Below are positions 2,958-23,700 of a stretch of 25,139 bases of DNA, piece after piece. This DNA comes from a virus. The stretch lies in the IMG/VR virus record IMGVR_UViG_3300030329_003268, positions 1 through 25,139 of that record; one strand, written 5' to 3'. Below the pieces are notes generated by a model. That model searched no databases, had not been told where the DNA came from, and saw only the letters and a list, made by a program, of their open reading frames with translations. The position numbers and the translations under genes were made by a program. Each line of letters starts with the position of its first letter. Position 1 is the stretch's first letter.

Positions 2958-5378
2958 ATGGCAGAGTCTGTACATAATGATTTTCCTAGTCAAGTTGTAA
3001 GTGATGTTGAGAAACTAAGCTATGACTATGGTTTAAAAGTAGCTAAAGCTATAGAAAACGAATGGTTTAGTGTTGATAGAAATTATCATAGATATACTAA
3101 TAATAAAAATAACTTTCATTCATTAAGATTGTATGCTAGAGGCGAACAATCAATTCAAAAATATAAAGATGAATTATCAATAAATGGTGATTTATCTTAT
3201 CTTAATTTAGATTGGAAACCAGTTCCAATTATTCCTAAATTCGTAGATATAGTTGTAAATGGTATTGCTGAAAGAACTTATGATATAAAAGCTTATTCAC
3301 AAGATCCTTATGGTACAGCGCAAAGATCTACATATATGCAGTCTATAATAGACGATATGGATAATCAAAACTTTAATGATTATGTAGCACAAGCTTTTAA
3401 TATTGATCTATATACAAATCCTAAAGAAACTCTTCCTGAAACAAAAGAAGAACTAGCTCTTCATATGCAATTAACTTATAAACAAGGTATAGAAATAGCA
3501 CAAGAACAAGCTATTAATACTTTGTTTGAAAAAAATAGATATGAATTAACTAGAAAACGTTTTTATTACGATCTTACTGTTTTGGGTATAGGTGCTGTTA
3601 AAACAAATTTTAATACTTCAGATGGTGTTACTGTTGAATACGTAGATCCAGCTGACTTAGTGTATTCATATACAGAATCACCTTATTTTGAAGACATATA
3701 TTATGTTGGTGAAGTAAAAACTTTACCTATTAATGAATTAGCTAAACAATTCCCACATCTTACTGACTCAGATTTAAACGAAATATCTAATAGTAGAGTT
3801 CCAGAACAATCTAATTACTATAATTCTTATGTCGAAAAAAATAAAATAGATCAAAATAAAGTTCAAGTTTTATATTTTAATTATAAGACATATATGAACG
3901 AAGTTTATAAAGTAAAACAGGTTGCAACTGGAGGAGATAAAGCTATAGAAAAAGACGATACGTTTAACCCACCAAAAGAAAAACAGGGTTCTTATGCTAG
4001 ATTGGCTAGACAAATAGAGGTTTTATATGAAGGAGCGTTAGTCTTAGGATCAGATAAATTACTTAAATGGGAAATGTCTAAAAACATGATGCGTTCTAAA
4101 AGTGATTTGAGTAAAGTTAAAATGAATTACTCTATAATAGCACCTAGAATGTATAAGGGTAAAATAGAATCATTAGTTAAAAGAATAACTGGATTTGCAG
4201 ATATGATTCAACTTACCCATTTAAAATTACAGCAAGTAATGTCACGTATGGTACCAGATGGTGTGTATCTTGACGCTGATGGACTTGCTGAAATTGATTT
4301 GGGTAATGGTACAAATTACAATCCACAAGAAGCATTAAACATGTTCTTCCAAACTGGGTCTGTAATTGGTAGAAGTTTTACTTCTGAAGGTGATATGAAT
4401 CCAGGTAAAGTTCCTATTCAAGAAATAACCAGTGGAAGTGGTGGCCAAAAACTACAATCACTTATAGCTAATTATAATTATTATCTTCAGATGATAAGAG
4501 ATGTAACTGGTTTAAACGAAGCTAGAGATGCTACTACACCAGATAAAGATGCTTTAGTTGGCGTTCAAAAACTAGCGGCTGCAAACTCAAATACAGCAAC
4601 TAGACATATACTCCAAGCTGGATTATTTTTAACAGCTGAAACTGCTGAATGCATATCTCTTAGAGTTGCTGATATTTTAGAATATTCACCAATGAAAACA
4701 TCTTTTATTCAATCAATAGGTGCTCAAAACGTTGGTGTTTTAGATGATCTTACAGAAATGTATTTACATGATTTTGGTATATTTATTGAATTATCTCCAG
4801 ATGAAGAAGAAAAAGCTTTATTAGAGAATAATATTCAACAAGCTTTAGCTCAACAATCTATAGAACTAGAAGATGCTATAGACGTTAGAGAGATTAAAAA
4901 CTTAAAGTTAGCTAATCAATTATTAAAACTACGTAGACAGCAAAAACAAGCTAAAGATCAAATGATAGCAGAAAGAAATATTCAAATGCAAGCAGAAGCT
5001 AATATGCAGACACAACAAGCCGCTGCGCAATTAGAAGTTCAAAAAGAAGCTGCTAAATCTCAAGCAGAAGCTGGTTTGGAACAAATAAAAGCACAGTTAG
5101 ATTCTCAAAAACTCATGCAAGAAGCTGAGGTTAAAAAACAACTAATGGCTCAAGAATTTGAGTATAACATGCAGTTAAGACAAATAGATCAACAAACTTT
5201 ACAACAAAGAGAAGATCAAAAAGAAGATCGTAAAGATAAAAGAACAAAAATGCAAGCAAGTCAACAATCAGAGTTGATTGATCAAAGAAAAAACGATAAA
5301 CCACCTAAAAATTTTGAATCAGCAGGTAATGATATAATAGAAGGTGGTTTTGATTTAGGGGCTTACGAACCTAGATAA
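2958..5378 (+). CDS. portal protein
   Basis: The portal forms the dodecameric ring at one capsid vertex through which DNA enters and leaves, and it is the docking site of TerL. It follows TerL by two bases. The 806-residue length fits the long portals of crAss-like and related podoviruses. The early part (about residues 35-115) has the portal-like run NNFHSLRLYARGEQSI, then a Trp-Lys-Pro-Val-Pro-Ile-Ile-Pro-Lys stretch leading to VDIVVNGIAERTYDIKA. A beta-rich wing follows, with VEYVDPADLVYSYTESPYF near residues 228-246. From about residue 620 to 780 the protein is an unbroken Gln/Ala/Lys/Glu helix, probably a long coiled coil or barrel, and it ends in a charged, flexible tail with GGFDLGAYEPR. 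Portals of the P22 type also carry a helical barrel reaching into the capsid. The start ATGGCA in the context aaatATG lacks a Shine-Dalgarno. Confidence 0.88.
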   Translation: MAESVHNDFPSQVVSDVEKLSYDYGLKVAKAIENEWFSVDRNYHRYTNNKNNFHSLRLYARGEQSIQKYKDELSINGDLSYLNLDWKPVPIIPKFVDIVVNGIAERTYDIKAYSQDPYGTAQRSTYMQSIIDDMDNQNFNDYVAQAFNIDLYTNPKETLPETKEELALHMQLTYKQGIEIAQEQAINTLFEKNRYELTRKRFYYDLTVLGIGAVKTNFNTSDGVTVEYVDPADLVYSYTESPYFEDIYYVGEVKTLPINELAKQFPHLTDSDLNEISNSRVPEQSNYYNSYVEKNKIDQNKVQVLYFNYKTYMNEVYKVKQVATGGDKAIEKDDTFNPPKEKQGSYARLARQIEVLYEGALVLGSDKLLKWEMSKNMMRSKSDLSKVKMNYSIIAPRMYKGKIESLVKRITGFADMIQLTHLKLQQVMSRMVPDGVYLDADGLAEIDLGNGTNYNPQEALNMFFQTGSVIGRSFTSEGDMNPGKVPIQEITSGSGGQKLQSLIANYNYYLQMIRDVTGLNEARDATTPDKDALVGVQKLAAANSNTATRHILQAGLFLTAETAECISLRVADILEYSPMKTSFIQSIGAQNVGVLDDLTEMYLHDFGIFIELSPDEEEKALLENNIQQALAQQSIELEDAIDVREIKNLKLANQLLKLRRQQKQAKDQMIAERNIQMQAEANMQTQQAAAQLEVQKEAAKSQAEAGLEQIKAQLDSQKLMQEAEVKKQLMAQEFEYNMQLRQIDQQTLQQREDQKEDRKDKRTKMQASQQSELIDQRKNDKPPKNFESAGNDIIEGGFDLGAYEPR

Positions 5379-5410: not shown

Positions 5411-6625
5411 ATGACAAGAAGAAAAAAAGAAGAGGTAGTTGAAGAGACTATCGAACAACCAAAATTAGATGATAAGGTTGATAAATTAAAAGTTAAGAAA
5501 AAAAAATCTATGAAAAACCTTAATAAAAAAGATGAGGTAATAAAAGTAGATTTTAGTAAACCAAAAACCAAAGAAAATGAAGTTACAGAAGATAATGTTG
5601 ACGAAGCAGGAGTCACTGAGGATGTTAAATCCGAGGACACCGGGCCCACACAAGAACAAGAAGAAGTACAACCGGAAGAACAAACACAAGAAACTCCAAT
5701 ATTAGAAGAAATAACTGATGAAGAAGTAGAAGAAAAAGTTGAAGAGTTAGTTGAAGAAACTAAAGAAGCTATAGTTGAAGCTCAAGAAACTGGAAAAGAA
5801 CTTCCTGAAAATGTTCAAAAACTAATAGACTTCATGGAAGAAACTGGTGGGGATATAAATGATTATGTTCGATTGAATCAAAATTATTCTGAATTAAATG
5901 ATAATGATTTATTACGGGAATATTATAAACAAACTAAACCTCATTTAAATTCTGAGGAAATTGATTTCTTAATGGAAGATCAATTTTCTTATGACGAAGA
6001 AACAGATGAGGATATAAATATAAAAAGAAAAAAATTAGCTTTAAAAGAGCAAGTTGCTCAAGCAAAGCAACACTTGGACAGTGCAAAGTCCAAATACTAT
6101 GAAGACATCAAAGCTGGATCTAAACTTACAAAAGATCAACAAAAAGCTGTAGATTTCTTTAATAGATACAACAAGGAGTCAGAAGAAAGATCAAAAATAT
6201 CTGAACGTTCACAATCTATTTTTAATAAAAAAACTAATGAAGTTTTTAACGATAAATTCAAAGGTTTTGAATATAACGTCGGAGAAAAAAAATATAGATA
6301 TAATGTAAATGATATAGATAATGTAAAGCAAACACAAAGTGACATTAATAATTTTGTCAAAAGGTTTTTGAACAATAATAATGAAATGGAAGATGCAGGA
6401 GGTTATCATAAATCTATATTTACAGCTATGAACGCAGATAATATTGCTAATCACTTCTATGAACAAGGTAAAGCCGACGCTTTAAAAGATAGTATTGCCA
6501 AGTCTAAGAACATTGATATGAATCCTAGACAGGCACATACTGGAGAATTTGAAACGGGTGGCGTTAAATTTAAAATGGTAGGTGATAATTCTAATGATTT
6601 CAAATTTAAAATCAAAAATAAATAA
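5411..6625 (+). CDS. putative capsid scaffolding protein
   Basis: This gene encodes 404 residues immediately before the major capsid gene, the usual place of the scaffold that guides shell assembly and is then lost. The N-terminus is basic (MTRRKKEE, then K-rich to about residue 60). A long, very acidic, low-complexity section (about 60-140) of Glu, Thr and Gln follows, probably disordered or coiled. The middle (about 145-215) has GGDINDYVRLN, DLLREYYKQTKPHL and a charged KKLALKEQVAQAKQHL helix. The C-terminal part is helical, rich in Asn and Lys, and ends in KFKIKNK, a basic tail of the kind scaffolds use to touch the shell. No protease motif is visible, so I do not call it a protease-scaffold fusion. 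An A9 run at 5498-5506 lies in the lysine-rich part. The role rests on position and composition; the gene itself is certain. Confidence 0.72.
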   Translation: MTRRKKEEVVEETIEQPKLDDKVDKLKVKKKKSMKNLNKKDEVIKVDFSKPKTKENEVTEDNVDEAGVTEDVKSEDTGPTQEQEEVQPEEQTQETPILEEITDEEVEEKVEELVEETKEAIVEAQETGKELPENVQKLIDFMEETGGDINDYVRLNQNYSELNDNDLLREYYKQTKPHLNSEEIDFLMEDQFSYDEETDEDINIKRKKLALKEQVAQAKQHLDSAKSKYYEDIKAGSKLTKDQQKAVDFFNRYNKESEERSKISERSQSIFNKKTNEVFNDKFKGFEYNVGEKKYRYNVNDIDNVKQTQSDINNFVKRFLNNNNEMEDAGGYHKSIFTAMNADNIANHFYEQGKADALKDSIAKSKNIDMNPRQAHTGEFETGGVKFKMVGDNSNDFKFKIKNK

Positions 6626-6645: not shown

Positions 6646-8148
6646 ATGGCAATTACAAGTGCAACGGCTAGTAATTTAACACCTTCACCGGTGATGAAAG
6701 CACTAGCTAGCAATTATTTAGACTTCACAACAGCTGCCGACGGCTGGGCGAAGCAATACTTACCAGATGTTTTAGCTGCAGAAGCGGAAGCTTATGGAAA
6801 TAGAACTATGGCAGGTTTTTTAAGACAAGTAGGTGCTGAGGAAGCTATGGCTTCAGATCAAGTTATTTGGTCAGAGCAAGGTAGATTACACTTGGCATAT
6901 AAAGGATATGTTAAACATGATGATAACCAATCAACCGCTGGTGGAACTAATAATGGTGGTGAAATAGCTATCGAGCAAGATATTGATGGTAGAGCAATTA
7001 CTACTACTCATGGTATTAGAAAAAACGATTTATTATTAATTGCTGATTCTAATACTACTGCTGTAGTTATTGTTACATCTGAACCAACAGCTACTCCTAC
7101 TGATGCTTTTAGTGTCGCTGTATATGACGCTGGATCTTCTACTGAAACTTTAGCAACATTAGGTTTTGCTCAAGGAAGCGATGATGATACTAGTTTAACA
7201 GTATTAGTTATTGGTTCTGAATATGCTAAAGGAACTGCTGGTAGAACTGGACAAAACGAGCCAGATCACAAAACTTATACTAACAAACCAATTATCATGA
7301 AAGATAAGTATGCTGTATCAGGTTCTGATACTGCTCAAATTGGTTGGGTAGAAGTTTCTAGTGAAGACGGTTCTGGAGGTTACTTATGGTACATTAAGGC
7401 TGAAGCTGAAACTAGAATGAGATTCATGGATTATTTAGAGATGTCTATGATAGAAAGTGTACCTGGTTCTGCAACAGCTGCTAATCAATCTGTTGATGAG
7501 TTTTTAGGTACAGGTGTTAATAACGGTCATCAAGGTTTATTTAACGCTATTGAATCTAGAGGTAATCAAACTTCCGGTGTAACTGGTGTTAACGCTGCTA
7601 CTGATTTAGCTGAGTTTGACGCAATTTTAGCTGAGTTTGATAAAAACGGAGCTATTGAAGAGAACATGATGTTTATTAATAGAACAACTGCTTTAGCAAT
7701 TGATGACATGTTAGCTTCAATGAATTCTTATGGATCAGGTGGTACTTCTTACGGTGTGTTTGATAACTCTGAACAAATGGCATTAAACTTAGGTTTTGCT
7801 GGTTTCCGTAGAGGTTCTTATGATTTCTATAAGTCTGACTGGAAATACTTAAACCAACAAGATGGTAGAGGTGGTATTAACTCTACTAATACTGTTGGTG
7901 CTATCAGAGGAGTTATTGTTCCTGCTGGAGTATCTTCTGTTTATGATCAAATGATGGGTAGAAACATGAAAAGACCTTTCTTACATGTTAGATTTAGAGC
8001 TTCTCAAACAGATAACAGATACCTAAAAACTTGGGTTACTGGTTCTGTTGGAGCTGTAACTTCTGATTTAGACGCTATGGAGATACATTATTTATCTGAA
8101 AGAGCGTTGGTTACTCAAGGTGCTAACAACTTTATGTTAATGAACTAA
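6646..8148 (+). CDS. major capsid protein
   Basis: This is the shell-forming protein, expected to have the HK97 fold. It has 500 residues, placed between the scaffold and a strong terminator. Residues 58-82 contain FLRQVGAEEAMASDQ and WSEQGRLH, a pattern I associate with capsid proteins of crAss-like and related marine phages. A beta-rich segment with small residues (about 95-215, rich in Thr, Ser, Ala and Asp) looks like an insertion or extended loop domain. Then come IGWVEVSSEDGSGGYLW and RMRFMDYLEMSMIES (about 232-272), which would be the spine-helix side. The C-terminus returns to beta-rich text. Codon use is more uniform than in the neighbours (GCT, GGT, ACT, TTA, AGA), as expected for the most heavily made protein. 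It starts ATGGCA after an A-rich leader without a Shine-Dalgarno. Confidence 0.88.
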   Translation: MAITSATASNLTPSPVMKALASNYLDFTTAADGWAKQYLPDVLAAEAEAYGNRTMAGFLRQVGAEEAMASDQVIWSEQGRLHLAYKGYVKHDDNQSTAGGTNNGGEIAIEQDIDGRAITTTHGIRKNDLLLIADSNTTAVVIVTSEPTATPTDAFSVAVYDAGSSTETLATLGFAQGSDDDTSLTVLVIGSEYAKGTAGRTGQNEPDHKTYTNKPIIMKDKYAVSGSDTAQIGWVEVSSEDGSGGYLWYIKAEAETRMRFMDYLEMSMIESVPGSATAANQSVDEFLGTGVNNGHQGLFNAIESRGNQTSGVTGVNAATDLAEFDAILAEFDKNGAIEENMMFINRTTALAIDDMLASMNSYGSGGTSYGVFDNSEQMALNLGFAGFRRGSYDFYKSDWKYLNQQDGRGGINSTNTVGAIRGVIVPAGVSSVYDQMMGRNMKRPFLHVRFRASQTDNRYLKTWVTGSVGAVTSDLDAMEIHYLSERALVTQGANNFMLMN

Positions 8149-8223: not shown

Positions 8224-9111
8224 ATGGCAAAGAAAAAAGAAACAAAAATTGAGGTAAAAGAACCTCAAGCAGAAGAGGTTCAAGTAAAAGAACCTCAAGT
8301 AGAAAAGGTTCAAGTAGAAGAAAATATTATTGAAGAACCTTATTTTAAAGATTATAATCCTTTAAAAGTAACTGAAAAAAAAGAAAGTGACGTTTGGGAA
8401 ATTAAAAATAGAGTTTATTATTTAAAAAGAGGTAAAAAACCTTTAAGTAAAATGATAAGAAGTGCTAATATATTTTATTTTGACGAAGAAAAAGGTTACG
8501 AAAGAGAATTAAAATATTGTGAAAATCAAAGAACGTGTTTTGTTGATGAAATGAAAGGTGATCAAAGATTATCACATATTGTTTTTAGAAATGGAGCTTT
8601 AACGGTTCCTAGAGAGAAAGTAGTATTACAACAATTACTTTCTTTATATCACCCTCATAGAGATAAGATTTATGAAGAGTGGAAACCGGTTAAAATAGCT
8701 GAAGATCAAGTTGATATCATGGAGTTAGAAGTAGATGCTTTAATAGCTGCTAGAAATATGGATATTGATTTAGCAGAAGCAGTTATGAGAGCGGAGATTG
8801 GTTCTAAGGTATCTAACTTGAGTTCTAAAGAGCTTAAACGTGATTTATTAGTGTTTGCTAAAAGAAACCCTAGATTGTTCTTAGAATTAGCTTCTGATGA
8901 TAACGTTGTACTTAGAAATTTTGGTATAAAAGCAACTGAACATGGAATTATTAAATTATCTTCTGATCAAAGAAACTTTTTATGGGGTTCTAATGATAGA
9001 AAGTTAATGACAGTTCCTTTTGACGAGCACCCATACACCGCTTTAGCGCATTGGTTTAAAACTGATGAAGGTATGGAAATATATGCAAATATAGAAAAAA
9101 GATTAAAATAA
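8224..9111 (+). CDS. unrecognised protein following the capsid gene, with N-terminal Lys/Glu repeats
   Basis: The gene encodes 295 residues. Residues 1-35 are low-complexity Lys/Glu/Val/Gln/Pro with a ten-residue unit (about VKEPQVEKVQ) repeated about two and a half times, likely a flexible arm. The rest is a mixed alpha/beta folded part. It has VWEIKNRVYYLKRGKKPLS (about 57-75), SHIVFRNGALTVPREK, and an acidic helical middle around residues 157-185. A run near 185-235 (NLSSKELKRDLLVFAKRNP, then LFLELASDD) is followed by a C-terminal helix. I do not recognise the family. Its position after the capsid gene and before the connectors suggests a virion structural or head accessory protein, or an assembly factor. 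It is bracketed by two hairpins, so its level may be controlled separately. The start is ATGGCAAAGAAAAAA, an A-rich beginning shared with the genes at 18688 and 19286. Confidence 0.85.
   Translation: MAKKKETKIEVKEPQAEEVQVKEPQVEKVQVEENIIEEPYFKDYNPLKVTEKKESDVWEIKNRVYYLKRGKKPLSKMIRSANIFYFDEEKGYERELKYCENQRTCFVDEMKGDQRLSHIVFRNGALTVPREKVVLQQLLSLYHPHRDKIYEEWKPVKIAEDQVDIMELEVDALIAARNMDIDLAEAVMRAEIGSKVSNLSSKELKRDLLVFAKRNPRLFLELASDDNVVLRNFGIKATEHGIIKLSSDQRNFLWGSNDRKLMTVPFDEHPYTALAHWFKTDEGMEIYANIEKRLK
8251..8325 (+). repeat. 30-bp tandem repeat inside the coding region
   Basis: Units 8251-8280 and 8281-8310 differ at only four or five bases, and a half unit follows at 8311-8325. The core GTAAAAGAACCTCAAG is identical in both full units. 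The unit is ten codons, so copy-number change keeps the frame and only lengthens the Lys/Glu/Pro arm of the protein. Confidence 0.88.
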
Positions 9112-9169: not shown

Positions 9170-9865
9170 ATGGTAAATATAGATACAGTGTATCAAAGAG
9201 TTTTACTTTTAGCAAATAAAGAACAAAGAGGTTATATAACACCGCAAGAATTTAACCTATTTGCTAACCAAGCTCAAATGGATATATTTGAACAGTACTT
9301 TTATGATTTAAATCAATTTTTAAAAACACCAGGTAACGATACATTATATGCAGATCCTGTAACTATATTACAAGACAAAATAGAATTATTCCATAAATCA
9401 ACTACGATTGGACCTGGTTCTAACCCATTTGATTTACCAAGTGATTCTTATAGATTAGGACAGGTTAGATATAATAATACAACGCTTGGTTACGGGGTTG
9501 ATGTAGAAAGATCAAGTCATAGACAGTTTATGGTAGCTAGAAACACACCTTTAGGAAAACCAACGTTATCTAGACCAGCTTACTATATGAAAGACACTAG
9601 AATAATTGTTAATCCAAGTAGTATAGATAAAATAGATATTAATTATATCAGAAGACCTGAAGCTGTTAAGTGGGCTTATACAGTTGTACAAGGTAAAGCT
9701 ATATATAACAGTACAAATTCAACAAATTTTGAACTACATGATTCTGAAGAAGTAGAATTAGTTTTTAAAATATTAGAACTGGCTGGTATAACTCTTAAAG
9801 ACAATTCTTTATATCAAGTAGCGTCAACAGAAGAAAACGAAACTATTCAACAAGAAAAAAGATAA
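9170..9865 (+). CDS. putative head-tail connector / ring protein
   Basis: The gene encodes 231 residues. The N-terminal helix region has VYQRVLLLANKEQRGYITPQ followed by EFNLFANQAQMDIFEQYF (about 7-43). I associate this pattern with a conserved structural protein in Bacteroidota and marine phages with this gene order. A beta-rich middle follows, with FDLPSDSYRLGQVRY (about 87-101), PAYYMKDTRIIVNPS and IDINYIRRPEAVKW. The end, LHDSEEVELVFKILELAGI then the Q/E-rich tail, is helical. This build (helical ends, central strands) resembles the small neck proteins that stack below the portal. Position between the capsid genes and the P22-like tail genes agrees. The specific role (adaptor versus ring) is inference. 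The next gene starts four bases after its stop. Confidence 0.68.
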   Translation: MVNIDTVYQRVLLLANKEQRGYITPQEFNLFANQAQMDIFEQYFYDLNQFLKTPGNDTLYADPVTILQDKIELFHKSTTIGPGSNPFDLPSDSYRLGQVRYNNTTLGYGVDVERSSHRQFMVARNTPLGKPTLSRPAYYMKDTRIIVNPSSIDKIDINYIRRPEAVKWAYTVVQGKAIYNSTNSTNFELHDSEEVELVFKILELAGITLKDNSLYQVASTEENETIQQEKR

Positions 9866-9869
9866 ATAA

Positions 9870-11195
9870 ATGGGATTATTAGATAATACAACAGAACAAG
9901 CTTATTATGAAGGTGGTAATCTAGGTAGTTATCAATTTACTTCTTTAGATAATATTATCGATCAATTCATGTTTGCTTATGTTGGGGGAGACAAAATAAT
10001 AAGTAAGATAGGGAGATCAGAAGTTGCTTTTCACGCACAAAGAGCTATGCAGGAACTATCTTTTGATACGTTTAAATCCTGTAAATCTCAAGAAATAGAA
10101 CTTCCACCATCTCTTACTATGAAACTTCCTCATGATTATGTAAATTATATAAAGTTAACATGGAGTGATTCTGCGGGAGTAGAGCATATTATATATCCAA
10201 CATCAAAAACATCAAACCCAAAAAATATAAAACAAGAAGAAGATGGTAGTTATTTCTTTGATACATCTTTTTTACCACCATATGGAGATGAGAATTCAGA
10301 TTTATCTTTATGGAATTTAATACCAAACATAACTGGAACTATAACACACTCTCCTGGATCAACACCAGAATCTATTGATTTTGCCGCTACTGGTCCAGAT
10401 TCTAGAATGATATTTAATTTTGATGATATTAATTCAACTTTAGATCAAAATATTCCTTATAGATTAAATTTTACGGTTACTAATTGGACTACTGATACTG
10501 TTATTACTCCTATTCTATATCTTCCAAGTGGAAATTACGTGTATTTTGATACAACTACAGGAAATGGAGATTATGAATATGATATAGATTGGGGAAATTT
10601 AAGTAGTACACCATCAAATTGGCATAGTAATGCTTTAGGTTTTTTATGTACAAACGCCGCAGGTACAACTTCTACTTTCTCTATAAGCAACGTAACGCTA
10701 ACAGATCCTAACAATCATTCAGATTATCTGTTTTACGAAACATCATCAGATACTTGGTCAAATTATAAAAGTCATACACCAAATGATAATGCAGATAGAT
10801 ATGATGATGGAACATATGATTTAACTAAAGGCGAAAGATATGGTATAGATCCTCAACATTCTCAAGTAAACGGATCTTATTTTATTGATTGTAATAGTGG
10901 AAAAATACATTTTAGCTCTAGTTTAAATGGTAAAACTATTATTTTACATTATATAAGTGATGGTTTAGGTACAGATGGGGAAATGCAAGTACATAAATTT
11001 GCTGAAGAGGCTATATATAAATGGATATTTTATGCGATAACTTGTGTAAGACCAGGCGTGCCTGAATATGTTGTTAGAAGATATCAAAAAGAAAAAACAG
11101 CGGCTATTAGAACGGCTAAATTAAGATTATCAAATATTAAACTAGAAGAAATCACTCAAATACTTAGAGGTAAATCTAAGTGGATAAAACACTAA
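9870..11195 (+). CDS. tail tubular / head-tail connector protein with an apparent inserted beta-sandwich domain
   Basis: The gene encodes 441 residues. The first part (about 24-125) has VGGDKIISKIGRSEVAFHAQ, AMQELSFDTFKSC, EIELPPSLTMKLPHDYVNYI and GVEHIIYPTSKTSNP. The last part (about 310-441) has ERYGIDPQHSQVNGSYFID, IHFSSSLNGKTIILHYISDG, KFAEEAIYKW and ends RLSNIKLEEITQILRGKSKW. These two ends together read like one compact connector protein of the P22 gp4 / T7 gp11 tail-tube class. Residues about 148-281 between them look foreign to it. They form a run of alternating strands rich in Thr, Asn and Trp, with YRLNFTVTNWTTDTVITP, a YVYFDTTTGNGDYEYDI strand pair and FSISNVTLTDPN at the end. This is the look of a carbohydrate-binding-module-like jelly roll (CBM4/9 style). 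The overall connector role is inferred from family pattern and place. Confidence 0.75.
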   Translation: MGLLDNTTEQAYYEGGNLGSYQFTSLDNIIDQFMFAYVGGDKIISKIGRSEVAFHAQRAMQELSFDTFKSCKSQEIELPPSLTMKLPHDYVNYIKLTWSDSAGVEHIIYPTSKTSNPKNIKQEEDGSYFFDTSFLPPYGDENSDLSLWNLIPNITGTITHSPGSTPESIDFAATGPDSRMIFNFDDINSTLDQNIPYRLNFTVTNWTTDTVITPILYLPSGNYVYFDTTTGNGDYEYDIDWGNLSSTPSNWHSNALGFLCTNAAGTTSTFSISNVTLTDPNNHSDYLFYETSSDTWSNYKSHTPNDNADRYDDGTYDLTKGERYGIDPQHSQVNGSYFIDCNSGKIHFSSSLNGKTIILHYISDGLGTDGEMQVHKFAEEAIYKWIFYAITCVRPGVPEYVVRRYQKEKTAAIRTAKLRLSNIKLEEITQILRGKSKWIKH

Positions 11196-11198
11196 AAT

Positions 11199-14100
11199 AT
11201 GCCAGAGATTAAAAACACTTTTAGTCAGGGTAAAATGAATAAAGACCTTGACGCGAGGTTAGTGCCAAATGGACAGTATAGAGACGCGATGAACGTACAA
11301 GTTTCTACTTCAGATGATTCTAATGTTGGAGTTGTTCAAAGTTTACTTGGAAATACTTTAAAGTGGAGTGGTCACGTATTTGGAGAAACTTATCAAGCGG
11401 GTACATCATGTGTTGGCGCTGTTGCTGATGAACAGAATAATAAAATATATTACTTTGTTAAAAGTGATGTTTTAGACGCGGTGTTAGAATATGATTTTGA
11501 TAGTGAGACTAATGATGTTATTTTAGTAGACGCTAACCAAAACGTTTTGAATTTTACTGGTGATATTATCACAGCTATAAACGTAATAGATGGGTTGTTG
11601 TATTGGACTGATAATAATAGCGAGCCAAAAAAGTTAAATATAAATACTTTTAAAACAGCTGCTACTTTAAGTACTAATATAGATGATCACACACAAATAC
11701 ATGGTAGAGATGTAGAGGAAAAAGATATAACTGTTATAAAGAAAAAACCAACTAAAGCTCCTGTTATGACTTTCTCAACTGAGATAAGAGATGGTCACTT
11801 AGGAAATCTTGATGCTGATACGGAACAATATTATGGTATAGCTAGAGATCGAAATCTTTCACTTAAACAAGTTGGTGATGAGGCTAATATATTTATGGAG
11901 TTACAGAGTATAAACTTTCCCTTTGATTATAAAGTTGGAGATGTGTTAGTAGCAACACTAGAATCAAATCCTCTTCCACCAGAAGGAGCTGGAGAAGAAG
12001 AAGTACGCATGATTGTTAAAGAAGTTTTTGGAGCTATATATAGTAGTGATTATACAACTACTGGTAAAAGACAAAGATTACGCGTTACAATAGAATATGT
12101 TTCTCCGAGTGTCACTACTGGTTTAGTAGATTGGAACATTAGATTAATCTCATCAGACGTAACAATTAACGACAAAAAGTTTTTTAGATTTGCTACTAGA
12201 TTTAAATATACCGATAAAGAATATTCAGCTATTGGTCCTTGGACTAATGTTGCTTTTTTAGCAGGTAATTTTTTATACGCACCAACAAAAGAACCTTATA
12301 ATTTAGGAATGCAAAATGCTACAAAATCAATTACTTTACAAGCGTTTGCAGGTGGAGATACACCAGATGATGTTGAAGAAATAGATATATTATATAAAGA
12401 AGAAAATTCCAATACTGTTTATGTAATAGATACGTTAAAAAAAGACGATCCAGACATAGAAACCGCGACTTATCAAGCTGTTGACAGTAACTATTATAAC
12501 AATTGGGAATTTCCATATCCCAACACTATGGCTCCTTTTACTGCGGGCACAGGTTATAGCACTAACTTTCATGGTTGGAGCTCGAGTGGTTTTATTTATA
12601 ATACATACACTGGTAAATACATTATTACGTCACAAAATATTATTTCCGCGTTACCTGAAGAACAACTACTTAGAACTTGGGATAGTGTACCTATTAAAGC
12701 GTTAGCACAAGAAATAGTGTCTAATAGATTAATATATGGTAATTATACAAAAAACTATAGTTTAACAGAAAAACCAACACTAAGTTGTCAATTTATAAAT
12801 AAAACAATTTGGCCAGGATTAGAATTAGATCCAGGTTACTTGGCTAGAGGTCGTAAATCTATAAAAACACTTAGAAATTATCAAATTGGTGTTTTGTTTT
12901 CAGATGATTATGGTAGAGAGACACCAGTATTTACAAATGAAGAATCTAGTTTAACATCTCCTTTTCATTTTGATTATCCAAAACAAATCACGGCTTTTTT
13001 AAAATCTTTTAATCCACCAGATTGGGCTAAATATTATAAATTTTATATAAAAGATACTTCTGATGAATATTATAATTTAGCAATGGATAGGGCCTATCCT
13101 GCTAATGACGATCAAAATCTTTGGATATCTTTTCCTTCATCAGATAGAAATAAGATTGACGAAGAAAGCTATTTAATATTAAAAAAACCAAGACTAGGTG
13201 AACCAGCTATCAATGCTGGTGAAGCTTGGAAAGTAGGTGTTGGAAGCGGTTTAAATCAAAAAAATAAATATAAAGTAATAGATATAAAAAACGAGGCTCC
13301 TGACTTTATAAAAAATAAATATCATTCATTAGGTACAGCTTCAAAATATCAGTTTACTAATGATGCTGGTACTACTGTTGATGTTCTTTTACAAAAAACT
13401 TCATCAGGCAATGCAGGATTATTTTTTGAATCTCCTTACTCAGCAACTCAAGACGTTCCTGATATGTTGCCTGGTGCGGGTGTGTCGTACATGAAAATAG
13501 ATAAATTTATTTGGTATTCAAGTCAGAATCGTTTTAATAATCAAGATTTAAAACCAAAATTATCTGAAGGCGAAACTGTTTTAGCTATTCAGTTCTCTAT
13601 ACCTGGTATCGAACCAGGTACTAAAATTTTATCAAAAAAATATGATATTCTAAGTTGTACTCTTGACAGCACAACAGTCCCTACAGGCATAGAACAAGCT
13701 TTCTATGCGATTAAATTAAAAGAACCTATTGAAGACGGTGATAGTTGGATTCGATCTGCTGCAAATACTTTAGATCCTAATTTAACAGTTGAAATATTTA
13801 AAGTCGAAAATAAAGATCTACAGGAATTTGAAGGTAGATTTTTTGTAAAAATTATGGGGGACGTTTTAACAAAAAACTATGTTGAAACTAGATTAGGACA
13901 ATGGTTAGTTCTTAGTAATACTAAATTTTTAACTTTAACAGATAGAAATCTTGTAAGTGGAGATGGGACAACTTATAATTCTCACTCAAGTCTTTTATCA
14001 AATACTTTTAGCGAATGGGAAACACTTCTTTACCAACACGATAATGGTGCCGCAGGTTTCTTTATTGATGCAACTTTCTTCGCATCAGGACAAACCACAG

Positions 14101-17063
14101 CGAATAACAGTGTTGGATGTAGCGGTATTATGACAGGTACACCAACTGATATTATTTCAGACAATTTGTTTAATGCAACCAACGCGGATTATGATGAGTT
14201 GTTGAGCGGTTTGTATGATGGTATATTCACAGCGTCTGGCGATAAATATGCCGCTGGTGTTGCCTCTGATTTATCTGATATGGGAGAAAGATCTTTTAGA
14301 ACACAACCACAAGAACTCTTAACTCCAATTGGTAGTGCACCTACAACACAATTAGGTACTAGAAGATATGTTTATCATCAAAATAAACATTACTTAAATC
14401 TTTCATTTAGTGGATGTGGTATAACTATGGCTGGTGAAAATGAAAATTTTCCAGTTAAAACAGCACCTTCAACAAGCACGTATTATCAGTTCAATCCAAG
14501 TACATGCGGACCAACAGAGACCGTGAGCACCAACTGGACTACAGGATATACTATTAATAGTGGTGGTGGAAGTGGTGTTATAAAATATGTTCCTGATTTA
14601 AACGGGACTTCTAATCAAGGTTGGATAAGATTTCCTAATTATAATGACGGCGCTTTAAGCGCGTTTCCTTTTGATACAAATATATGGCCTTCTATAGATC
14701 CAGATTTAACGTCACCAACTAATTATTATAATAGTAGTTCTAAAAAGAAATGGAGAACAATGTGGGATCCTACAGTTGATGCTAGTGGTAATGAAGTTGT
14801 TAGTCGAAAAAAGTTTGTAGATAATTTAGAAGTAAATAGTCAATTTTATTTTGAAGATGATCCTGATCAAATTATTTATACAATAACTAGAGTAGAAAAA
14901 CTCAGATTTTATAATCACACATCATGGAGGACTACTTGGTTAGAAGACACGGGTGGAAACGCTGACAGTAGACTCGCGAAAAGACATCGTGTTGGTAGCT
15001 ATTCAAATAACTCTGTAGAAGAAGCTTTATTGTCATATTTAAACGATACTAGTGGTACTGTAAGTTTCGATATTGATGGTAACGCTATGGATATGGGTGG
15101 CGCTGGAACACGTTTAGCGTACTTACAACAAATGATATATCAATTTGGACATAGAAATAATAGAAGAGTAACTTATGTATTGGAATTAGATAAAGACCCA
15201 ACACAAGAAACTTGGTATCCTACAAATCTAGCTGATGTAGCAAGTTTTAACGTTTTGAAAAAGATGATTTTTGTAAGTAATGATAATTCTGGAGAACTTG
15301 TAATTGGATTACCTCAAAGCCCAGCTGTTTGGGAAACTGAACCAAAAGAAAAGTTAGAATTAGATTTATACTATGAAGCTAGTGATAATATACCATTAAC
15401 AATAAATGAAAACACACGAGAGTTATTTGCACCTTCTGGAAGTACCATTTGGTGTATAAATCAAGCTGAGACTCCTATTACAAACAACGAAGCTTGGCGT
15501 CACGATTTATTACAAGGACCATGTGCACAACCAACCATTCATTACTGGGAGACACCAAGTAGTGGTGTTTATAATGGAGAAGAAAATATATTTCGATGTG
15601 CTAATTTATGGGCTACTTATACAGATGATGCTGGAAATGATTGTTTTTTAACACAAGGATTAGCATCTAATTACACTCCTAGTGCTGATGATGTTTGGGT
15701 TGTTGGAGATGATAGTCAAGATTTTTCAAATCTTGGTACAGAAGGAAAATTTCTTATAAGAATAGATAAAGGATCTGGAGATTGGGTTACAGCTGAAGTT
15801 GAAGATTTTAGAGTTAGAGAATACATTAGCGGTGGTAAGACTAATTGGGTAATAAATAGACTTAAAATAAAAGAACAAGACAATCATCAATACTCAGTTG
15901 GACTTAATTGGTTTAATTGTATAGATTTTGGAAATGGTGTTGAATCAAATAGAATTAGAGATGATTTTAACGATGTTCTAATCCGAACAGGTATTAAAGC
16001 GTCTACTACTACAATAAAAAAATACGAACAAGAAGTTAAAGAAAATGGTTTAATTTTCTCTAGTATATATAGTCCTATGGGTAATATCAATGGATTTAGT
16101 GAGTTTATAGCAGCGCAGGATATTACAAAAGATCTTCCATTAGAATACGGTAGTATACAAAAGTTATTTACTAGAGATAATGATTTGTTATCATTCTGTG
16201 AAGATAAAGTTACTAGAATATATTCTGATAAAGACATATTGTATAACGCTGATGGAAACGCACAATTAACTGCTTCTAATAGAGTTTTAGGACAGTCTGA
16301 TCCTTTTGAAGGGGAATTTGGTATATCTAAAAACCCAGAATCATTTGCATCAGAATCTTATAGAGCTTATTTTGTAGATGCAAAAAGAAGATCTGTGTTA
16401 AGGTTATCTAAAGACGGAATAACTAGAATATCTGATTATGGGATGTCTGATTGGTTTAGTGATAATATAAAACCTGAGAATACATTAATTGGATCTTTTG
16501 ATTACGATAAACAAGAGTATAATTTAGCTGGAGTAAACAATAAGGTAGTGAGTTTTAGCGAGACAGTTAAAGGTTGGGTTAGTTTTAAATCTTTCAACAC
16601 TATGCAATTTGGTATTAGTTTAAGTGGTAAATATTTTACTTTTAACAATGGAAAACCATATGAACATCATAGTAATACTGACAGAAATGTTTTTTATAAC
16701 AACCATACTGCTTCGTCTATAACGGCTATTTTAAATCAATCTCCTGAAATAGTCAAAGATTTCAAAACATTATCTTACGATGGAACACAATCTAAAATTG
16801 TAGCACAAACAACAGACCAAGAAGCGGATTCATTTGGAGAATACTATAATATGGAATCTAAGGAAGGCTGGTATGTTGGCACCATATCTACAGATAGTAG
16901 TTTATTTTCTTATGATACAACTAATTCTCCATTTGATTTTAAAAATAAAGAAGATAAATGGTTTAATTATATAAGAGGAACTTCTATAGAAGAATCAGGA
17001 GGAAACAATTTTGATTTATCAAACTTTAATTTTCAAGGAATTGGAGAGAAAATAATACCATAA
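11199..17063 (+). CDS. large tail stabilisation ('muzzle'-type) protein, P22 gp10-like N-terminus
   Basis: The gene encodes 1954 residues. Residues 10-32 (QGKMNKDLDARLVPNGQYRD...) followed by NVGVVQSLLGN are the signature opening of P22 gp10-like stabilisation proteins in crAss-like and related phages. Further recognisable blocks are TWDSVPIKALAQEI (about 493-506), NRLIYGNY (509-516), YYKFYIKDTSDEYYNLAMDR (about 610-630) and SFPSSDRNKIDEESYLILKK (about 643-662). Near the end there is YGSIQKLFTRDNDLLSF with VTRIYSDKD (about 1650-1685) and YRAYFVDAKRRSVLRLS (about 1720-1740). The latter look like beta-propeller-type strands reading 'F-V-D-x-K-R-x-x-V-L-R'. Such proteins plug and extend the tail below the connectors and hold the genome in. 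The middle (about 850-1550) is variable and rich in Asn, Thr, Ser and Trp, and may contain receptor-facing domains. It begins four bases after the connector gene and ends two before the next. Family assignment is good; domain borders are estimates. Confidence 0.82.
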   Translation: MPEIKNTFSQGKMNKDLDARLVPNGQYRDAMNVQVSTSDDSNVGVVQSLLGNTLKWSGHVFGETYQAGTSCVGAVADEQNNKIYYFVKSDVLDAVLEYDFDSETNDVILVDANQNVLNFTGDIITAINVIDGLLYWTDNNSEPKKLNINTFKTAATLSTNIDDHTQIHGRDVEEKDITVIKKKPTKAPVMTFSTEIRDGHLGNLDADTEQYYGIARDRNLSLKQVGDEANIFMELQSINFPFDYKVGDVLVATLESNPLPPEGAGEEEVRMIVKEVFGAIYSSDYTTTGKRQRLRVTIEYVSPSVTTGLVDWNIRLISSDVTINDKKFFRFATRFKYTDKEYSAIGPWTNVAFLAGNFLYAPTKEPYNLGMQNATKSITLQAFAGGDTPDDVEEIDILYKEENSNTVYVIDTLKKDDPDIETATYQAVDSNYYNNWEFPYPNTMAPFTAGTGYSTNFHGWSSSGFIYNTYTGKYIITSQNIISALPEEQLLRTWDSVPIKALAQEIVSNRLIYGNYTKNYSLTEKPTLSCQFINKTIWPGLELDPGYLARGRKSIKTLRNYQIGVLFSDDYGRETPVFTNEESSLTSPFHFDYPKQITAFLKSFNPPDWAKYYKFYIKDTSDEYYNLAMDRAYPANDDQNLWISFPSSDRNKIDEESYLILKKPRLGEPAINAGEAWKVGVGSGLNQKNKYKVIDIKNEAPDFIKNKYHSLGTASKYQFTNDAGTTVDVLLQKTSSGNAGLFFESPYSATQDVPDMLPGAGVSYMKIDKFIWYSSQNRFNNQDLKPKLSEGETVLAIQFSIPGIEPGTKILSKKYDILSCTLDSTTVPTGIEQAFYAIKLKEPIEDGDSWIRSAANTLDPNLTVEIFKVENKDLQEFEGRFFVKIMGDVLTKNYVETRLGQWLVLSNTKFLTLTDRNLVSGDGTTYNSHSSLLSNTFSEWETLLYQHDNGAAGFFIDATFFASGQTTANNSVGCSGIMTGTPTDIISDNLFNATNADYDELLSGLYDGIFTASGDKYAAGVASDLSDMGERSFRTQPQELLTPIGSAPTTQLGTRRYVYHQNKHYLNLSFSGCGITMAGENENFPVKTAPSTSTYYQFNPSTCGPTETVSTNWTTGYTINSGGGSGVIKYVPDLNGTSNQGWIRFPNYNDGALSAFPFDTNIWPSIDPDLTSPTNYYNSSSKKKWRTMWDPTVDASGNEVVSRKKFVDNLEVNSQFYFEDDPDQIIYTITRVEKLRFYNHTSWRTTWLEDTGGNADSRLAKRHRVGSYSNNSVEEALLSYLNDTSGTVSFDIDGNAMDMGGAGTRLAYLQQMIYQFGHRNNRRVTYVLELDKDPTQETWYPTNLADVASFNVLKKMIFVSNDNSGELVIGLPQSPAVWETEPKEKLELDLYYEASDNIPLTINENTRELFAPSGSTIWCINQAETPITNNEAWRHDLLQGPCAQPTIHYWETPSSGVYNGEENIFRCANLWATYTDDAGNDCFLTQGLASNYTPSADDVWVVGDDSQDFSNLGTEGKFLIRIDKGSGDWVTAEVEDFRVREYISGGKTNWVINRLKIKEQDNHQYSVGLNWFNCIDFGNGVESNRIRDDFNDVLIRTGIKASTTTIKKYEQEVKENGLIFSSIYSPMGNINGFSEFIAAQDITKDLPLEYGSIQKLFTRDNDLLSFCEDKVTRIYSDKDILYNADGNAQLTASNRVLGQSDPFEGEFGISKNPESFASESYRAYFVDAKRRSVLRLSKDGITRISDYGMSDWFSDNIKPENTLIGSFDYDKQEYNLAGVNNKVVSFSETVKGWVSFKSFNTMQFGISLSGKYFTFNNGKPYEHHSNTDRNVFYNNHTASSITAILNQSPEIVKDFKTLSYDGTQSKIVAQTTDQEADSFGEYYNMESKEGWYVGTISTDSSLFSYDTTNSPFDFKNKEDKWFNYIRGTSIEESGGNNFDLSNFNFQGIGEKIIP

Positions 17064-17065
17064 TT

Positions 17066-18235
17066 ATGGAGGGAATAATAAGAAATATACGTTTAACACC
17101 AAGTGGTAACATAAGTAAAAGAAGCCATAGCGTTAAAGTGATTGTAAGTGCTACAGAAAATAGTTCTATTAGATTATTCGTTAAAAACGCTGCGGGTAAT
17201 TATTATAATTTTACTAGTAATGCTTTCGCTTCTGGTTTTAGTTATTTTAAATATGATTTTACTTCAAATCATGTACTTAAAAAACCCGTGGAAATACCGA
17301 GTGTATCTTCTAACGATACATATACATTTGAAATAATTGCTGTAAAGTCTACTATAGCTAATTCTACGACGCCTCAAGGATTTTCTCAAACTATCAGCCA
17401 ATATGTAGATTCAGACGCGGTTTTTCAATTAGCAACAGATACATCTGGAGACTTTTCCTCTTTTCCATCTAATGTAACAAGTACAAACTCACCTATTGTT
17501 GAAACAAATAAAAGATTATCTATAGATTGGACAGTAACAGCTCAAGCTGCTATTACAGGTAGTGCTTTGTCTATAGTTAGACAACCTCTTATAGGAGATT
17601 TTTATACACAAACAAGTGCTTATACTGCTAATGGAAGTGGTAGTAGCGCTACATCTTTAGTGTTAGATAGTGTAAGTGGTTTACATCCTGGTATGAAATT
17701 ATCATCAATTGATGGTACATATGATTCTAATTTAAGAACTATAACTAATGTAAATGGATCTACAAATACAGTTACTTTAAGTGGTAGCGCTTCTTGGGAT
17801 AATGATGAGCCTATTATATTTAGAGCATATGGCCCGGAATTAATGGGTTTGCATTCTGGAGTTAGAATACAGCCAGAAACACTATCTGTTACTTTGAAAC
17901 CAACTATAAAAGTTGTTAATGGGGCAACATCAAGTAGTACAGACGTTGTTCTTACTGATGTTACAGGTATAAGAGTAGGTGAAGGAATTACTTTAGTAAC
18001 GTCTCCAAGTATAGTTAGCGATGCAAACGTTTCTGTTGCTTCGATTGTTAGTTTTGCTGGTAAAGAAATAAGACTTTCTAGCGCCCAAAGTTTTAGACAT
18101 AAAGAAGTTTTAACACTTCAAGGAACATCTCAATCAGCAGATGTATCTTTAGATATAATAATTACAAAACAACCATTATCTAACACAAATATATATTTTG
18201 ATGTAGATAATATATTATCTTCATCAACCTCTTAA
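17066..18235 (+). CDS. beta-rich tail accessory / fibre-like protein with an internal duplication
   Basis: The gene encodes 389 residues, almost all short strands rich in Ser, Thr, Val and Asn, with few helices and no signal peptide. The N-terminal part (about 1-120) has SVKVIVSATENSSIRLFVKN and YNFTSNAF, looking like a small beta-sandwich. Two later segments, about 186-256 and 281-352, appear to be copies of one 70-residue domain. Each has a Gly/Ser-rich lead, a 'T/S-x-V-L-x-[DS]-V-[ST]-G-[LI]-x-x-G' turn (SLVLDSVSGLHPG and DVVLTDVTGIRVG), an inner strand with Ile-x-x-[IV] and a 'V-T-L-S / I-R-L-S' strand followed by [GS]-[SA]. It follows the stabilisation protein by two bases and precedes another small gene by three, so a virion tail part (fibre, cap or adhesin) is likely. 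The exact role is unknown. Confidence 0.72.
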   Translation: MEGIIRNIRLTPSGNISKRSHSVKVIVSATENSSIRLFVKNAAGNYYNFTSNAFASGFSYFKYDFTSNHVLKKPVEIPSVSSNDTYTFEIIAVKSTIANSTTPQGFSQTISQYVDSDAVFQLATDTSGDFSSFPSNVTSTNSPIVETNKRLSIDWTVTAQAAITGSALSIVRQPLIGDFYTQTSAYTANGSGSSATSLVLDSVSGLHPGMKLSSIDGTYDSNLRTITNVNGSTNTVTLSGSASWDNDEPIIFRAYGPELMGLHSGVRIQPETLSVTLKPTIKVVNGATSSSTDVVLTDVTGIRVGEGITLVTSPSIVSDANVSVASIVSFAGKEIRLSSAQSFRHKEVLTLQGTSQSADVSLDIIITKQPLSNTNIYFDVDNILSSSTS

Positions 18236-20771: not shown

Positions 20772-23700
20772 ATGAAGAGATATAAACATCCAAACGGTTT
20801 TACATATACTGAAGAAGAGTTATTAGAAGCTGCTGCTAATGAAAATATGACTTTAGAAGAGTTTATTTCCAATAGAGGTTTAAAATTAATTACTGCTGAA
20901 ATGGATCCTATAAGTGTAGATGAAGGGGTAGTAGACGTAGCAAGTGTTGATAGCCCTATAAAAACTCCTAGTATAACACATCCAACAACAGAAGGGTTTT
21001 TAAACGCGGCATCTGCTGTTTTTACTCAAGAAGGTGATGTTGTTAAGTTTCTTAATAGTCATTATGATGAAAGTCAAGTTAGATTTGTAGAGGCTGAAGC
21101 TGGAAGAGATTCTGTAGAAGTTTTAATTGGTACTCAAAAAGAAGGGGAAGGAGAGGTTTTTAATTTAGCCTGGAAAGAAAAAAATAATGAACTTATATTT
21201 GAGGAAATTAAAGCCTATATAGATAGTCAAGGCGATATAAAACCTAGAACTATATACAACGACGGAGATGTTGAGGAGTTCGATAGTAAATCTTTTCACA
21301 CAATAGAAGATGGTAGAGAGGTAGGTGTTGATAAAACACAATTAATTGATGATTTAAGAGAAAAATTTCCTAAACAACAAACTGGTTTTACGTTTGAAAC
21401 TGGAGAAGATTCTACTTATTTAAAAGTAACAGCACCAAACGGAGAGGTTTTAGAAGGTAATAAAGTTACAGAATTAGATATAAAGAATTTTATAAATGAA
21501 AACTCAATGAATGATGATGAGTTGCAACTTATAAAAGATGATGAACTAACAGTAATAAGATCATTAGAGGAAAATTTATTAAATTTTAGTGTTGATTATA
21601 TTAATGAGAATTTCGCACCAATAATGGGTCAAATATCAGGAACCGAAAAAAATCCATTTAATTCGGTTAATAAATATTATTACGACAAAAAAGATAATAT
21701 ACAAAAAGCTTTTTTAGAAGAATATAATTTAAAAGTTGGTGGGGGCACGCATTCACTTACTGATAGACAAATAGATTTAGTATTTGACGAGGCTTGGAAC
21801 ACGTTGGTTCAAGCAGAAATTAGTACTTCGATCATGAGAACTTCAAAAGCGCTAGTTACTAGGTTGACAACCGATCCAGATGCTTATAAGTTATATATAG
21901 ATGGGTTAGAAAAAGACTTTAAAAATAGAAATTTTAAAGAAGGTAGTTTAGAAGCAAAAACCTATCTTCAATTTCAAGAGTTAATGAAGTTAAATCATGA
22001 TATTGCTACATTTATTGGTAGTGTAGAAAGTCAAGAATACAAAAATTTAGTAAATAAATCAACTGCATTAGAAAAAGAATATTTATCAAACTTTAATAAA
22101 TATATTAAGGGTGAGGGACGAGTTATGTTTGATGTTAATGGTAATAGAGTAAACCCTGAAAAAATATCAAAAGAAGATAAAGATAGTGGTTTAGCAAGTG
22201 GTAATATAGTTGACTTTGGTCAAGACGTAGATATTCATTATAATATGTTATTAAATTCATATTTAGTTGATAGCGAAGGATTACCTACTAATGATTGGGA
22301 TAAAACAAGAGTAGCTTTTGATTTGCATCTTGAAGATTATAATTTTCACAATACATTGGCTACTAAAAACAATATAACATTAACATTTAATTTAAACAAT
22401 AAGAATTATAAGAAAAAATATCCTAATGCTAATTATTTAGGTGGCCGTCCTGATATGTTAGTTGGAAGTAATCAATCTGCAGAAACATCCGCTGGACAAA
22501 GACCATTTGTTGGATTAGAAATGTATTTAGTGCCTAGGGCATTACGTGGTGGTACTATTCAACAACCTATGAAATTAACATGGACAGATGATGATGGTAA
22601 TACATACTTGTTAAACGATATAGTAACAACAAAGCAAGGAAGACACAAGTATTGGGATGCGAACACTAAAGAATTTGCTTCAATAGAAAAGATGTTTATT
22701 GTTCCAAAAGACGCTAGTTCTGAAGAATGGAAAACTTTAGTAAACAAAGGAGTTGTTATAAAAACAAAAGACAATAGAACTGATAGTGATGTTTGGGTGT
22801 TTGGATATAAAGACAACTTTAAAGTTAAAGGAAATAGTATAGCTACACTAGGAGAGATGCAACTTAGTGGTGATGACATGTTATTAATGAATTTGAACGT
22901 GCGTTATGACTTTGAAGATAACGAGTCTATTGAGACTTTTAACAGGAATCCAGAATCTTATTTGCAAAAATCGGATTTGTTTTGGGGACCAGGAGAAGTT
23001 GGTGTAGAAGGTGAAAAAAAAGGAGGTGGTAAATGGAGTTTACATATAGAGGGTGATGCACAAACGGGGTATTATTTTGATGATGATCCTGGTACTCAAT
23101 ATTGGGATGGGGAGGCTAGTCCAGAGTTTCAATTCCTTATGGAATCTTTAGATGCGTATAGAATAGATAGAAAAGACATGGCTGTTCAATCAGAGGCTTG
23201 GAAATTATTACATATGAATGTGGATCCTGGTTTTATGGAAAGAGATAAGGGGGATTTATATTTTAAAGGTGTTGCATTAATGATGCCTGGTAACTTTCAA
23301 ACTGCTGAAGCACAAATTCATAATTATAGTTTAGATGTTGATGCCAGAATCCAAACAGGTGGTGATTTAATAAATGAAATAAATGGTATAACACAACTAT
23401 TATATCCTGATAGAAAAGATCTTCACTTTGGAGGTCTTTCTAAATACCAGCAAGACAATTTAGAAATGGATTGGCAAGAAAAATTTGCTTATGGTATGGG
23501 TAGTTTTACACCTATGATAGCTGAGTTTGCACTTCTTGGCGCTGTTACAGGAGGAGTTTCTAGTTATGTTGGTTTAACAAGATTACTAGGTAACATGAGA
23601 AAAGTAGTATATGTTGCTAAAGTAGGAGGAAAAGGGTTTAAGGCTGGTCAAAGAATGTCTAAATTCCAAATGATGAACGCGGCTAAAGCGGCTGGTATGT

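Follow-up and report, generated by a model that had tools for sequence, protein, structure and literature searches.

Gene order and features of the locus

The DNA analysed here, referred to as the window, is a stretch of 25,139 nt that forms part of a 32.9-kb virus record. Because its genes follow the order seen in Cellulophaga phage phi38:1 and relatives, and because its muzzle protein scores above the Pfam cut-off, the virus belongs to the crAss-like podophages, and among these to the marine kind. Cultured relatives have hosts in Cellulophaga, Flavobacterium, Maribacter and Tenacibaculum; no plasmid or near-identical cultured phage matching the window was found. The features considered in this study are as follows (CBM, carbohydrate-binding module).

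739-2955: large terminase
2958-5378: portal
5411-6625: open reading frame between the portal and the capsid-type protein
6646-8148: capsid-type structural protein
8224-9111: open reading frame between the capsid-type protein and neck1
9170-9865, + strand: neck1, the upstream ring/adaptor protein, 231 aa, without an insert in the window (PHROG 14543)
9870-11195, + strand: neck2 ring protein (head-tail adaptor/connector), similar to crassvirus ring protein 1, 441 aa (PHROG 13977, E 2.3e-43; model of homologue L040; muzzle gene next)
9870-10253, + strand: N-terminal core of neck2, residues 1-128 (alignment to insert-free homologues)
10254-10745, + strand: inserted segment, residues 129-292, i.e. 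the predicted jelly roll and its two linkers (junctions placed by core HMMs on 233 homologues)
10311-10703, + strand: predicted CBM-like jelly-roll strands, residues 148-278 (AlphaFold2 model with pLDDT of about 60-86, Foldseek, CBM70 profile match)
10746-11192, + strand: C-terminal core, residues 293-441, including two long C-terminal helices (alignment and model)
11199-17063, + strand: muzzle (nozzle) protein, 1954 aa (Pfam PF25731 crAss_MUZ, 45.6 bits against a cut-off of 27)

Neck1 matched Pfam SU10_adaptor at E 4e-4, which is under the cut-off, and gp34 (R4/R5) of phicrAss001 by hhalign (77%, E 2e-5). The capsid-type protein is 500 aa long compared with 446 aa in phi38:1, which may reflect a domain difference. 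An extra gene of 389 aa lies 3' of the muzzle gene (17066-18235) and has, by eye, 'GMxLxxIDG'-like beta repeats that recall the class B inserts described below; the class B model gave no report on this gene at E 1e-3. The open reading frame at 20772-25139 (>1456 aa) continues beyond the window, carries a HEIYH zinc-metallopeptidase-like motif near the window end and possibly encodes an ejected virion protein.

The core of neck2 and its likeness to ring protein 1

Sequence searches with neck2 yielded little: phmmer against the PDB returned no match for the window protein, Pfam returned chance-level matches only, and hhalign comparison of the core profile with the ring, hub and auxiliary proteins of phicrAss001 gave nothing, R1-R5 all scoring <1%. 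The insert-free homologue L040 was modelled with AlphaFold2 (62-row alignment, mean pLDDT 77.6) because the full-length model left most of the core at pLDDT <50. The top Foldseek matches of the L040 model were 7QOI and 7QOG, chain B (probability 1.00, E about 2e-6 to 5e-6, TM 0.57-0.59 on target), and chain B of 7QOG is gp43, the ring protein 1 (R1) of phicrAss001. Further matches were tail or neck proteins of the phages VP1, SU10, Pa223, KHP30, DEV and GP4, and the model contains the conserved helices and beta-sandwich of the ring-protein fold. Neck2 also lies directly upstream of the muzzle gene, as gp43 precedes gp44 in phicrAss001.

The predicted structure supports a neck2 core of the R1 type of head-tail ring protein, and with the muzzle gene next to it the original prediction of an insertion into a neck connector is borne out. 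In phicrAss001 the rings are dodecamers stacked on one another; R1 is the one at the portal end, and R1 and R2 together bear the tail-hub collar (PMC10172136). By analogy with such homologous ring structures, neck2 would form a dodecamer round the DNA channel and present its insert in twelve copies (PMC10172136).

Limits and conservation of the insert

It had been predicted that a separate, Trp/Asn/Thr-rich domain at residues 148-281 splits the 441-residue connector. Alignment with ten insert-free homologues of 280-292 aa is continuous from one end to the other apart from a single block in the window protein: the core continues to DGSY (residue 128) and restarts at SDTWSNYK (residue 293), and the insert was therefore defined as residues 129-292. 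The predicted strands, at residues 148-278, occupy nearly the same span as the domain first proposed, and the composition agrees as well, with W/N/T contents of 2.4/10.4/14.6% in the insert against 1.0/5.5/5.9% in the core. The window insert is acidic (pI 4.05) and is without any lysine.

Versions without the segment occur in the cultured phages phi38:1, Panino and elemo (283-290 aa) and in many contigs (about 290 aa), including L040, which aligns with the window protein at either end but not over residues 129-292. The segment is therefore not part of one fold in all homologues, and the L040 model indicates that the core folds without it rather than being completed by it. The closest relative, L001, comes from another metagenome and carries the same domain, with amino acid identities of 69% in the insert and 81% in the core. 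Between these two sequences dN/dS is 0.27 for the insert and 0.15 for the core (NG86, with dS near saturation), and the insert evolves under purifying selection. No further copy of the insert family was found elsewhere in the 32.9-kb record. Chance or assembly error as the origin of the insert was ruled out, given that 118 of the 233 homologues have inserts and that the domain shared with L001 is under purifying selection.

Predicted fold and relation to carbohydrate-binding modules

In the full-length AlphaFold2 model, residues 147-280 form a beta-sandwich at a local pLDDT of about 60-86; most of the core is below 50 and, at such low confidence in the core, this model does not fix how the domain is oriented. 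A Foldseek search of the same model against the PDB gave 151 matches at E ≤0.001, which include CBM4 (3p6b, 1gu3), CBM11, CBM16 (3oea, TM 0.60 on target), CBM22 and CBM30 as well as a CBM70 hyaluronan module, the HFTV1 turret and a phage tail fibre. The CBM matches most likely stem from the insert, since the model of the core is poor in its beta part and many targets have a length of about 145 aa. The insert thus shows the beta-sandwich jelly-roll fold of CBMs (about 140-165 aa), as predicted at a local confidence of 60-86 only.

A profile of 15 related inserts matched the CBM70 structure 4d0q over its full length (E=3.2e-8) and CBM4 (1gu3/1ulo) at E 0.007; the CBM70 match relies on rows of the NGDF type and falls to E of about 0.1 when only the eight rows nearest to the window are used. 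Pfam PF02018 (CBM_4_9) did not match the window insert at E 0.5, a Pfam search with the window insert alone matched no CBM family, and CBM_4_9 was detected in the inserts of 4 of the 15 relatives (best E 1.4e-4). As regards the CBM4/9-type jelly roll of the original prediction, the fold is thus upheld by the model, by Foldseek and by the 15-row profile, and the window copy itself has no match to the Pfam CBM_4_9 family. These results support an autonomous CBM-type jelly roll, as modelled, which, judging from fold and profile similarity only, may bind sugar.

The CBM70 module binds hyaluronan via tryptophan and basic residues, and its groove is positively charged (PMC4175358). The ligand residues W82/R112/R145/K185 are not conserved across 32 aligned sequences: W is absent among the residues listed for the W82 column, R145 is R in nine sequences, R112 is R in one and K185 is K in four. 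Because these critical residues are not conserved, hyaluronan binding is not implied by the profile match, and hyaluronan or mucus as the specific ligand was rejected as a claim.

Insert classes and other decorated sites

Core HMMs were placed on 233 distinct homologues, a set whose counts mirror the queries used and form no census. An insert of >70 aa at the residue-128/293 junction (site 2) was present in 118 of these, an N-terminal insert instead in 45 and neither in 70. Insertion into a core connector, first thought unusual, is therefore common in this sample, as about half of the relatives carry an insert there and the inserts belong to several unrelated classes. At site 2 we distinguished class A (24 inserts of 207-255 aa), class B (55 inserts, mostly of 150-200 aa, with GMxVxG-type motifs), class C, which is that of the window (28 inserts), and the related class D (4 inserts; hhalign 97% to C), while seven of the 118 fall outside classes A-D. 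Profile-profile comparison detected no similarity among A, B and C/D and, as far as such comparison can tell, at least three sequence-unrelated insert classes share one junction. The likeness to CBMs reported above is that of the window-type inserts and is not claimed for class B, and hence not every variant need bind sugar. The neck2 gene of L162 (3001-4299) has a unique, cysteine-rich site-2 insert of about 155 aa that is unlike all other classes.

The second insertion site of neck2 is near the N terminus, between residue ~15 and GxYQF. The domains at this site are beta-rich, 80-140 aa long, contain 'FTGDGTTTxFTL' and give weak DUF4183 or tail-fibre-like matches. They are found in the following neck2 genes.

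L183, 2719-3864: neck2 with N-terminal-site domain
L184, 2713-3870: neck2 with N-terminal-site domain
L211, 2719-3846: neck2 with N-terminal-site domain
L258-L297: neck2 with N-terminal-site domain

The two neck2 sites were filled together in 0 of 233 and 0 of 83 cases (sets that are partly the same contigs), where about 23 of 233 would be expected if the sites were independent. When tested on the tree by independent pairs, this mutual exclusion was not significant, and for this reason it is given as a pattern only; one conceivable cause is that a subunit can take no more than one decoration.

A lengthened neck1 was found in 30 of the 233 loci, and in some of these a class B or C domain accounts for the extra length; among the 118 loci whose neck2 has a site-2 insert, neck1 is long in only 2. 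The muzzle of some relatives also bears class B or C domains, with class C jelly rolls placed near residues 127-280 in several cases. The genes are as follows.

L188, 1176-2990: lengthened neck1
L005, 4198-5988: lengthened neck1
L062, 4962-5993: lengthened neck1
L208, L217 and others: lengthened neck1
L005, 7261-13257: muzzle with class C jelly rolls
L057, 6874-12870: muzzle with class C jelly rolls
L053, 6871-9645: muzzle with class C jelly rolls
L110, 4369-7365: muzzle with class C jelly rolls

As neck1 and the muzzle carry class B and C domains, the neck and the tail tip share a pool of small beta-domains.

Gain, loss and transfer of inserts

On a tree built from 195 neck2 cores, at least 46 changes of insert state are needed (mean of 113 after shuffling). 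For site-2 presence the number is 12, and for class among carriers it is 32; because many branches are weakly supported, these counts are approximate. Cores that are 88-90% identical can carry different classes (L007 with C and L039 with B; L018 with C and L051 with A), and the core of L040, which has no insert, is 86% identical to that of the insert-bearing L044.

The loci L010 and L088 share insert DNA that is 93% identical in genes that are otherwise 73% identical. Along the gene, the DNA of the two loci is about 72% identical in the core, rises to 87-97% over the insert and drops again behind it, with the steps falling within ~30 nt of the domain edges, and the synonymous distance is 1.12 in the core and 0.30 in the insert. 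Such a profile shows the horizontal transfer of a domain cassette. The window insert, at 69% identity to that of L001, is only 26% identical to that of L088, the corresponding cores being 81% and 77% identical. On the strength of these comparisons, site 2 is an exchangeable docking point at which cassettes come, go and replace one another, as they do in other host-interaction proteins of phages.

Proposed function and alternative explanations

We consider it fairly probable that the insert is a CBM-like adhesion decoration, exchangeable and twelve-fold on the neck ring, that binds surface polysaccharide before the receptor is engaged. The jelly roll would emerge from a loop that is exposed on the ring protein next to the portal, and twelve copies, a number taken from homology, would be displayed outward round the neck. 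Most likely the domain serves as an adhesin of low affinity and high avidity, directed at polysaccharide on surfaces or particles, be it capsule, exopolysaccharide or marine gel, and it would bring or hold the virion near the host before the muzzle engages its receptor. The docking site would accept domain cassettes by gain, loss and swap. About half of the sampled homologues manage without a site-2 insert, which counts against this reading.

Structural reinforcement, in which the domain would prop the neck against adjacent rings or the vertex of the capsid, would agree with the purifying selection on the insert and has a model in roseophage R4C, whose adaptor is described as having an Ig-like domain that touches capsid subunits (PMC10276861). 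We nevertheless regard it as unlikely: cores that are 86-90% identical may be without an insert or bear either a jelly roll or a domain unrelated to it, a cassette has moved between divergent phages, and free exchange of this kind would not be expected of a domain that has to fit fixed partners. The domain could otherwise hold a tail fibre or appendage on the neck, given that R1 and R2 of phicrAss001, which hold the tail-hub collar, form the surface on which tail hubs and fibres dock (PMC10172136) and that the window has no obvious hub genes from the MCP to the muzzle. This seems quite unlikely, as insert-free relatives share the gene order and docking therefore cannot generally depend on the insert; moreover, a docking domain should vary in step with the fibre that it holds, and a match to carbohydrate-binding modules would not be expected of it. 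That unrelated domains are freely exchanged is less easily reconciled with bracing or docking than with an adhesin.

The presence of many unrelated classes at one junction, and the frequent absence of any insert, would also be explained if pooled beta-domains recombine into tolerated loops and persist, as neutral or selfish decorations, by doing little harm. Such an origin is very unlikely in our estimation, since dN/dS is well below 1 inside the inserts, the frames are open throughout and the same few families recur at several places in the tail machinery.

The interpretation given in the original prediction is thus partly supported, and the reading of the insert as an exchangeable adhesin can tentatively be extended. 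It is conceivable, though we would not call it probable, that the head-proximal neck ring is a primary, fast-exchanged adhesion platform of these phages, with two sites on the ring protein and a neighbouring ring and muzzle that share part of the pool, and that it replaces the role of tail fibres and helps to set host or habitat range. CBM insertions are already known in distal tail hubs and accessory collar proteins; in the present case the same logic is seen on a DNA-channel ring beside the capsid, in the crAss-like group and with many natural variants. This points to a place, apart from the fibres, at which adaptation to surface polysaccharide may occur in these phages, and cores of up to 90% identity with different decorations offer natural comparisons for the function of neck decorations.

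Comparison with known systems

The gp43 protein of phicrAss001 (7QOG chain B) is like neck2 in its predicted core fold and in its place directly upstream of the muzzle gene; it differs in having 236 aa without an added domain and no detectable sequence similarity. The neck passage structure of lactococcal phages is, unlike neck2, an accessory collar protein and no ring of the DNA channel. Its proteins share with neck2 the neck location and domain shuffling, and some have carbohydrate-binding domains (PMC10684548). The R4C adaptor likewise has a beta-sandwich domain on a dodecameric ring, but this domain is N-terminal and contacts the capsid, and no exchange between relatives is described in the available part of that report (PMC10276861). 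The CBM70 module of Streptococcus pneumoniae hyaluronate lyase (4D0Q) and CBM4 resemble the insert in their jelly roll and whole-module profile match; CBM70 differs in its ligand residues, which the insert does not keep, and in its positive groove, as opposed to the acidic insert (PMC4175358).

The evolved Dit proteins of skunaviruses and other siphophages likewise come as a classical version and as a longer one, in which alignable ends enclose an internal insertion of the CBM type, and their inserts differ between relatives and are linked to adsorption to EPS+ hosts (PMC10688798). In skunaviruses, recombinant phages showed that the CBM insertions of evolved Dit promote adsorption to EPS+ lactococci (PMC10688798); together with the shuffled neck passage structures, this is the nearest precedent for the proposed function of the neck2 insert. 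Dit forms the baseplate hub at the distal end of siphophages with Gram-positive hosts, whereas neck2 would be a head-proximal ring of a crAss-like podophage, in which the carrier is a protein other than Dit and unrelated domains fill the same junction.
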